64,000 nt of DNA from Thermobifida alba (GTDB lineage: Bacteria; Actinomycetota; Actinomycetes; Streptosporangiales; Streptosporangiaceae), in assembly GCF_023208015.1 (NCBI RefSeq), contig NZ_CP051627.1, positions 682,001 through 746,000 on the forward strand, read 5' to 3'. The position numbers and the translations under genes are program-made. This document shows, in pieces, positions 23,858-25,655 of this stretch. A model generated the notes under the pieces. The model worked only from the letters and a program-made list of their open reading frames with translations, did no database searches and was not told the origin of the DNA. The first letter of the stretch is position 1. Each line of letters starts with the position of its first letter.

Positions 23858-24172
23858 TCAGTGCAGCAGTCTGAGGCCGACGACGCCGCCGACGATGAGC
23901 AGCAGGCAGCAGATCCGCGCCACGCTCACCGCCTCGCCGAGCCAGACCATGCCGACCACGGCGGTGCCGATCGCGCCGATGCCCACCCACACCGCGTAGC
24001 CGGTGCCCACCGGGATGGACCGCAGCGCCAGCGCCAGGCCGCCCATGCTCAGTACCAGGGCGACGAGGAAGACCACCGAGGGCCACAGCCGGGTGAAACC
24101 GCGCGACGCGTCCAACGCGATCGCCCACACGGTCTCCAGCAGTCCGGACAGGATGAGGAGCAGCCAGGCCAT
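23858..24172 (-). CDS. gdx: SMR-family exporter, probably guanidinium (Gdx/SugE type)
   Basis: This 104-residue small multidrug-resistance protein has four TM helices. The essential Glu is in LSGLLETVWAIALDASRGF (residue 13), a start typical of the SugE/Gdx branch. WVGIGAIGTAVVGMVWLGE is the conserved third to fourth helix region. It should work as an antiparallel dimer exchanging protons for a small cation. The guanidine-III aptamer just upstream makes guanidinium the likely substrate and shows how the gene is regulated. ATG 24172 has GGAGG upstream; the open frame extends further but overlaps the aptamer. Confidence 0.93.
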   Translation of the reverse strand: MAWLLLILSGLLETVWAIALDASRGFTRLWPSVVFLVALVLSMGGLALALRSIPVGTGYAVWVGIGAIGTAVVGMVWLGEAVSVARICCLLLIVGGVVGLRLLH

Positions 24173-24199
24173 CGTTGCCTCCGAATCGTGGGAAGTGCC

Positions 24200-24240
24200 G
24201 CGCCGTCTTGTCCTGACCGGGTACGACGCACCTCGTCCGG
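24200..24240 (-). ncRNA. Guanidine-III (mini-ykkC) riboswitch
   Basis: On the minus strand the 41 nt begin CCGGACGAGGTGCGTCGT and end ACAAGACGGCGC. The segment GCGTCGT pairs with ACGGCGC (one G-U pair), and the ACCCGG segment closes the second helix with CCGG, giving the class-III pseudoknot with the ACGAGG and GGACAAGAC conserved strings. From memory the T. fusca aptamer used for crystallography differs at one base, in a position that keeps pairing. The Shine-Dalgarno GGAGG and start codon of the SMR gene follow within 30 nt, so control is probably translational. Confidence 0.93.
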
Positions 24241-24377
24241 GGCCGAGGCCCGCGACCTCGCCGCCGCACAGGATAGCGGGGCGCCACCGGAGGCGGTGCC
24301 CCGGCCCGGGCGGTGGAGGAGCGGCGGCGGGCCTTCGAAAGGGGCCCGCGGACACGGGGTTCCCCGCCGGGGCCCGG

Positions 24378-25655
24378 TCAGGTGGCGTGGCCGGTCGCGG
24401 CCCGGTGGTCGGGCAGTTCCACGGCGTTGGCGGCGCGCTGGACGCCGCTGCCGAGCCGGCTGAGGGCGGGAAGGCGCGCGGCGAGACGCAGCAGCTGGTC
24501 GCGCAGCCAGAGGCGCGGGCGGGTGGCGGGGAGGAGCAGGCCGCCCCCGGAGGAGACGAGGGCCTGGTTCTGTTCGACGTAGGGACGCATCCGGGCCTCG
24601 TAGCGGGGGAACGCGGTGCGGTGGTCGCCGTCGGCGGCGGCGAGTTCGCAGGCGAGGACGTAGGCGCCGACCAGGGCCAGGCTGGTGCCCTGGCCGGACA
24701 GCGGGGAGGGGCAGTGCGCGGCGTCGCCGAGGAGCACCACGCGCCCTCGCCACCAGCGGTCCATGCGGATCTGGCTGATGGAGTCGAAGTAGAAGTCCGG
24801 GGTGTCGTCCAGCAGCCGCAGCAGCCTCGGTGTCTCCCACCCCATGTCGGCGAAGACGGTCCGCAGGATCTGCTTCTGGGCGGAGGCGTCGCGGGGGTCG
24901 AAGGGGATCGGTGCGCGGGCGGAGAACGCGAGGACCGCCTTGGCCTCCGGGTTCACCCCGGACGCGGCCTCCTCCTGCGGGGCGGGCGGTTCGACGCGGC
25001 CGGTGTGGGGAGCTGCGCTGTAGAGGCCGACGAGCCTGCCGGGGACGTTGTGCAGCACCACCTCGCGGTCCAGGCCCAGGTGGTTGGGCACGCCGAAGAT
25101 GGAGATGTAGCGGTCCAGGTCGCGGCGGAACCGCTCCTCGGGGCCGAAGGCGGTGCGGCGGACGGTGGAGTGCAGGCCGTCCGCGCCGACGACGAGGCCG
25201 AAGGTGCGCGGTGCGCCGCGTTCGAAGGTCACGCGCACCCCGTCGGCGGTCTCCTCCAGGGCGGCGACCGAGTCGTCGAAGACGTACTCGACGTCGTGTT
25301 CGGTCGCGGCATACAGGATGCGGCTGAGGTGGCCGCGCATCAGTTCGACGTCGCGCCCGCCGGTGCCGTCGTCGAACAGGGTGATGTCGACGGTGACGCG
25401 GCGGCGTCCGGTGGAGTCGGCCACGGACATCCGGCGCAGGTCGGTGTAGGCGCGGCGGACCTGCGGCAGCAGGCCCATCCGGTCGAGGACCTCGACGGCG
25501 GCGCCGCGGACGTCGATGGCGTAGCCGCCGTCGCGCAGGCGGGGTGCGCGCTCGACGACGACGGGGGTGAAGCCGAGCCGGTGCAGCCAGTAGGCGAGGG
25601 CGGGGCCGGCGATGCTCGCCCCGGAGACGAGGACGGTGCGGTCGGTGGAGGGCAT
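24378..25655 (-). CDS. FAD-dependent aromatic-type monooxygenase
   Basis: This 425-residue group A flavoprotein monooxygenase carries the N-terminal dinucleotide motif LVSGASIAGPALAYWL, the middle DG motif (VVGADGLHSTVR) and the FAD ribityl motif LLGDAAHCPSPLSGQG. It should use NAD(P)H and oxygen to hydroxylate an aromatic or polyketide-like compound. The first Gly of the usual GxGxxG is retained as GASIAG. It is divergent from a TetR gene 173 bp away, with an inverted repeat between them, so substrate-induced expression is likely. ATG 25655 follows AAGGAGGAGG. The substrate cannot be told; such pairs often serve drug inactivation. Confidence 0.9.
   Translation of the reverse strand: MPSTDRTVLVSGASIAGPALAYWLHRLGFTPVVVERAPRLRDGGYAIDVRGAAVEVLDRMGLLPQVRRAYTDLRRMSVADSTGRRRVTVDITLFDDGTGGRDVELMRGHLSRILYAATEHDVEYVFDDSVAALEETADGVRVTFERGAPRTFGLVVGADGLHSTVRRTAFGPEERFRRDLDRYISIFGVPNHLGLDREVVLHNVPGRLVGLYSAAPHTGRVEPPAPQEEAASGVNPEAKAVLAFSARAPIPFDPRDASAQKQILRTVFADMGWETPRLLRLLDDTPDFYFDSISQIRMDRWWRGRVVLLGDAAHCPSPLSGQGTSLALVGAYVLACELAAADGDHRTAFPRYEARMRPYVEQNQALVSSGGGLLLPATRPRLWLRDQLLRLAARLPALSRLGSGVQRAANAVELPDHRAATGHAT

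Follow-up and report, generated by a model that had tools for sequence, protein, structure and literature searches.

The window, a stretch of 64,000 nt of Thermobifida alba DNA, carries on its minus strand a 41-nt element (24200–24240) that an initial annotation had read from the letters as a class III guanidine riboswitch controlling an SMR exporter. This raises the question of whether the element is a genuine member of its class placed to control an exporter gene, and what the single base by which it departs from the crystallized RNA of Thermobifida fusca means for the sensor.

The aptamer core and the gene behind it

Scanning the whole window against Rfam 15 with cmscan returned a match to the Guanidine-III family (RF01763) at 24262–24197 on the minus strand, which covers the complete model (positions 1–67 of 67) with 55.8 bits and an E-value of 7.6e-9. 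This is the covariance scan that the annotation had proposed as a check, and the score lies 19.8 bits above the gathering cut-off of the family (36 bits). It was the sole Rfam match above gathering cut-off anywhere in the window, and RF01763 run against the whole 4.9 Mb genome found no copy besides that in the window, while the same genome searched with the guanidine-I family gave no riboswitch of that class. The aptamer core (24200–24240) contains the class III strings CCGG, ACGAG, CGUAC, CCGG, and ACAAGACG, all within the 41 nt. Numbered after the text of Huang et al. 2017 (PMC5696562), the core forms an H-type pseudoknot on the minus strand, in which the 4 pairs of P1 join nucleotides 1–4 to 21–24 (24240–24237 with 24220–24217), the 7 pairs of P2 join nucleotides 12–18 to 35–41 (24229–24223 with 24206–24200), and the third strand runs from 24235 to 24230. 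All pairs are standard, one of them being a U-G pair at 15–38. The nucleotides C6, G7, and G17, which that text names as ligand contacts, are kept in the window core. The class III assignment and the pseudoknot pairing of the annotation are borne out by these strings, pairs, and scores, and the element is an ordinary, correctly read new copy of an already known riboswitch class.

The gene behind the core (23858–24172, minus strand) starts 27 nt downstream of it and encodes a protein of 104 amino acids. Pfam places this product in the SMR family (PF00893, 89.4 bits against a cut-off of 23.7), and its best PDB match is 6wk5, the structure of Gdx-Clo, an SMR guanidinium exporter according to the text of PMC7695847. 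Aligned to Gdx-Clo, the window protein has E13, W16, S42, Y59, and W62, besides G10; the roles of these five residues are described in the text of PMC7695847 and PMC9574504, the first of which uses W16 to tell Gdx from Qac proteins, where a G or an A stands at this place. The score with the NCBIfam SugE equivalog model (116.3) is under the cut-off of 126, yet ranks first among the 21 families that matched; the T. fusca homologue is likewise under that cut-off (117.6). The family and PDB matches agree with the Gdx/SugE type that had been assigned to the gene, and its product would be a Gdx-type SMR protein and putative guanidinium exporter. A second PF00893 gene of the genome (L147, C1:377467–377748) has Ala at position 16, gives Qac models as top matches, and comes without a guanidine-III element.

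At an E-value of 0.001, guanidine-III matches occurred in 79 of 120 genomes of the family (77 above the Rfam family cut-off) and in 51 of 396 genomes of the phylum (42 above it), the genome of the window being included in both counts. From these genomes, and from genome contigs scanned once with a pattern, we collected 145 loci, leaving out 3 weak matches (G116, G136, and G319). A parser that picks the reading by pairing score, and that restricts position 33 to A or C, read 141 of them into 110 distinct cores (L084, L094, L096, and L141 were left out). A motif search found an SMR gene behind 121 of the 141 parsed loci, with T. fusca counted twice, and behind 85 when an aromatic residue was required at position 16. 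Met occupies the Gdx Trp16 position in 37 of the 121 SMR proteins (L037 and 36 others). These proteins form one clade that goes back to one change, and therefore their association with aptamers carrying A38 (36 of 37) is not independent evidence. Other genes were also found behind these elements: in L081 the element precedes a metallo-beta-lactamase-fold protein (PF00753, 41.1 bits), with similar protein starts in L078, L085, and L086, and in L097 an arginase-family protein (PF00491, 256 bits), with similar starts in L008, L095, L108, and L109, L081 and L097 being the members of each group that were scanned.

Nucleotide 15 and the variation of its base triple

The T. fusca RNA that was crystallized, whose sequence Huang et al. 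2017 (PMC5696562) give, differs from the window core at nucleotide 15 only (24226, minus strand), where the window has U for C. The T. fusca record NZ_BCWB01000008.1 (L033) also differs from the window core at this position alone, so that the one-base difference that the annotation had given is confirmed twice. Nucleotide 15 pairs with G38 (24203) in P2, and the change from a C-G to a U-G pair was thus correctly described. In the crystal, as the text of Huang et al. 2017 (PMC5696562) describes it, P2 is formed by nucleotides 12–18 and 35–41, and C15-G38 and G10 make a base triple, one of 3 regular triples that run into the ramp holding the ligand; by analogy with this structure, U15 of the window RNA would form a triple with nucleotide 10 (24231). 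The annotation had added that the substitution keeps the fold. A U-G pair does replace the C-G pair, but because 15–38 belongs to the C15-G38-G10 triple and also carries the third-strand contact of G10, this part of the claim is softened to an expectation, namely that the U15-G38 wobble is neutral or mildly weakens the fold.

Among the 110 distinct cores, the pair 15–38 is C-G in 55, C-A in 42, U-A in 8, U-G in 4, and G-C in 1. Because the pair varies naturally in this way, the window variant is less special as a probe for comparing affinity than had been suggested. The U-G cores are those of the window, L019, L054 (same genus), and L097, and U15 is found in 2 of the 4 Thermobifida genomes seen with a match (the window and L054). 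L054 also carries C33 instead of A33, as do L133 and L134 (3 of the 110 cores, at a position where the parser allowed A or C only). When an exact-match pattern of the window core with positions 15 and 38 open was run against named genome contigs, a set from which records near the genome of the window may be left out, the U15 core of the window was not found; 6 contigs matched, all with C15, of which 2 had G38 and 4 had A38.

The frequency of C-A is not favoured by the parser, since its pairing score includes 15–38. In a model hairpin, the nearest-neighbour energy of P2 is −13.0 kcal/mol with C-G, −10.9 with U-A, −10.3 with U-G, and −5.8 with C-A treated as an open mismatch. That C-A is costly as a mismatch yet common suggests that C15-A38 is in fact paired, or that the third strand holds it. 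When its A is protonated, a C-A wobble takes the same shape as a U-G wobble, and therefore the U15-G38 pair of the window would correspond to a state that is common in nature. No mention of C15-A38 pairing was found in the passages of running text from the guanidine-III literature that were searched, and we do not claim newness. Nucleotides 10 and 38 are identical in 89 of the 110 cores (G/G in 53 and A/A in 36), against 70 at most in shuffles, a statistic that ignores relatedness. On a tree of the SMR proteins, which is a quick tree of 120 rows and few columns with many forks unresolved, the minimum number of changes is 8 at nucleotide 38, 16 at nucleotide 10, and 9 at nucleotide 15. In a tree-aware test, 4 well-supported independent pairs differ at nucleotide 38, and a mean of 2.8 of them change the same way at nucleotide 10 and none the opposite way, too few for significance. 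We tentatively propose, as a possibility that falls short of being probable, that the 15-38-10 triple by the ligand ramp occurs naturally in at least 2 geometries, a Watson-Crick form with C-G or U-A and a wobble form with U-G or C-A, of which C-A would take the U-G shape only on protonation of A38. Nucleotide 10 tends to equal nucleotide 38 (G-G or A-A), U15-G38 of the window would be the unprotonated counterpart of C15-A38, and the C-A members may be pH-sensitive. This variation of the 10-15-38 triple, U15 of the window included, is the most interesting thread at the locus.

The same data bear on the possibility that U15-G38 harms the triple and makes the window copy a weak or lost sensor. 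Such damage could be expected from the position of nucleotide 15 in a base triple and from the P2 energy of the model hairpin, which falls from −13.0 to −10.3 kcal/mol, but U15-G38 is seen again in L019, L054, and L097, the costlier C15-A38 (−5.8 kcal/mol in the same model) occurs in 42 of the 110 distinct cores, and the remainder of the window core is intact. With U-G in 4 and C-A in 42 of the 110 cores, a wobble at 15–38 seems to be tolerated and a large loss of affinity is unlikely, and we regard a damaged sensor as very improbable. A chance or non-functional match deserves even less credence, because it is contradicted both by the covariance score (E-value 7.6e-9) and by the conservation of the element, which in all 4 Thermobifida seen stands before a gene of the same type.

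The leader and the proposed switching

A Shine-Dalgarno-like GGAGG (24178–24182, minus strand) follows the core at a distance of 17 nt, so that the earlier statement that the element lies directly before the Shine-Dalgarno is no more than roughly right. On the other side of the core, the Rfam element takes in a 5′ hairpin that was absent from the earlier 41-nt reading. In this part of the element (24241–24262, minus strand), the cmscan alignment and folding pair GGUCG (24257–24253) with CGGCC (24245–24241), and an alternative, overlapping hairpin of CGAGGUC with GGCCUCG (24260–24254 with 24250–24244) is possible. Further upstream, TATCCT (24270–24275, minus strand) is a candidate −10 box that fits TANNNT in the 4 Thermobifida leaders aligned by eye; a start from it would place the 5′ end of the RNA near the 5′ hairpin. 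A sigma-70 scan found no consensus promoter. In the alignment of the 4 leaders, the same arrangement is present throughout: the aptamer is invariant save for nucleotide 15 and the A33 to C change of L054, GGAGG is invariant, and by eye conservation is much higher in the leader than in the DNA upstream of it. An FAD-binding monooxygenase gene lies upstream on the same strand as the exporter gene (24378–25655, minus strand), with PRK07588, PRK05868, and a tetracycline-destructase subfamily model as its best NCBIfam matches, each under its own cut-off. A terminator for this gene was considered and rejected, the hairpin at 24377–24330 being no better than shuffles (z −0.32) and the terminator scan giving none.

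According to the text of Huang et al. 2017 (PMC5696562) and of a 2025 review (PMC12186494), this class acts as an ON switch with the ribosome site near; the former describes a guanidinium-driven folding of the third strand into P2 that stabilizes the pseudoknot and disfavours competing structures of the leader, so that the exporter is made, and the latter adds protection from RNase E. Transferred to the window, rising guanidinium would bind G7 and G17 at their Hoogsteen edges and stack on C6, and the bound ligand would lock the third strand into P2 and stabilize the pseudoknot. Once folded, the aptamer would then work against competing structures around the ribosome site, which lies 17 nt downstream, and it may additionally block RNase E, after which the exporter would be made and guanidinium pumped out. 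The primary study of the RNase E protection is reportedly that of Richards and Belasco 2021. While sequence, structural match, gene type, and conservation are those of the window copy itself, ligand, pocket, and ON direction are taken from papers on other copies, and it is from near identity with these that the window copy would be expected to bind guanidine and switch its leader. We are highly confident that the 5′ leader of this Thermobifida gdx gene holds a guanidine-III riboswitch, which would respond to guanidinium by turning the exporter on. A simple release of the ribosome site was rejected on the folding results: without the pseudoknot, the predictions for the 4 Thermobifida disagree with one another and do not separate an OFF from an ON state, and masking the aptamer made the ribosome site of the window more paired in the prediction, not less. 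By eye, the CCUC in the arm of the 5′ hairpin is a possible pairing partner of GGAGG in Thermobifida.

Another proposal for the switching step, compatible with the ON switch, is an OFF hairpin in which aptamer nucleotides 21–35 pair with exporter codons 6–13 and shut the ribosome site until guanidine breaks it. Perfect complements of 10 nt in L003 and in L013, 8 nt in L016 (T. fusca), and 11 nt in L021 point to such an anti-aptamer, and over 119 loci runs of at least 7 nt occur in 21, against 5.9–7.9 expected from synonymous shuffles (z 3.2 to 5.3 in the longest-complement test). Among 79 less redundant loci the runs occur in 11 against 3.7–5.1 expected (z 1.6 to 3.0 for the mean effect), and among 39 representatives in 5 against 1.9–2.3 (p 0.03–0.04), control regions showing these runs at chance level, but in these 39 the mean run length is no greater than chance would give (p 0.13–0.22; z 0.8 to 1.2). 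By duplex energy, p 0.05 was reached at just 8 of 81 loci, where about 4 would be expected (z about −2 on the 81 loci), and in a swap control aptamers paired with the genes of other loci did equally well (p 0.40). At the window locus the longest unbroken complement is just 5 nt and the duplex energy is not unusual (p 0.18–0.22). The hairpin would moreover open P1, whereas in-line probing by the Breaker group found P1 and P2 formed without ligand, as cited in the text of Huang et al. 2017 (PMC5696562). Because the mean effect shrank after removal of near-duplicates and the swap control failed, we keep the anti-aptamer as a rival only, which we consider doubtful; in coding sequence it is not supported at the window locus and is unproven in general. 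The window element is most likely a guanidine ON switch.

Comparison with known systems

Taken alone, the locus adds one further well-placed pair of guanidine sensor and exporter. The window RNA is also a natural partner of the T. fusca crystal RNA, and together with the C15-A38 forms it offers a small set of natural variants of a single base triple, suited to asking how affinity depends on the P2 triple helix and whether a protonated A-C pair gives some guanidine switches a pH response. The T. fusca guanidine-III riboswitch (PDB 5NWQ; PMC5696562) is alike in 40 of 41 nt, in genus, in the Gdx-type gene behind it, and in the pocket of C6, G7, and G17, and differs in that its C15 makes a Watson-Crick pair where U15 of the window makes a wobble in one P2 triple. 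Compared with the Rfam family RF01763 (Guanidine-III, ykkC-III), the window element matches the model over its full length, and no departure from the range of the 141 parsed relatives was seen. The window protein aligns with residues 1–101 of Gdx-Clo (6wk5) and has G10, E13, W16, S42, Y59, and W62 in common with it, while K21 of Gdx-Clo is replaced by D.
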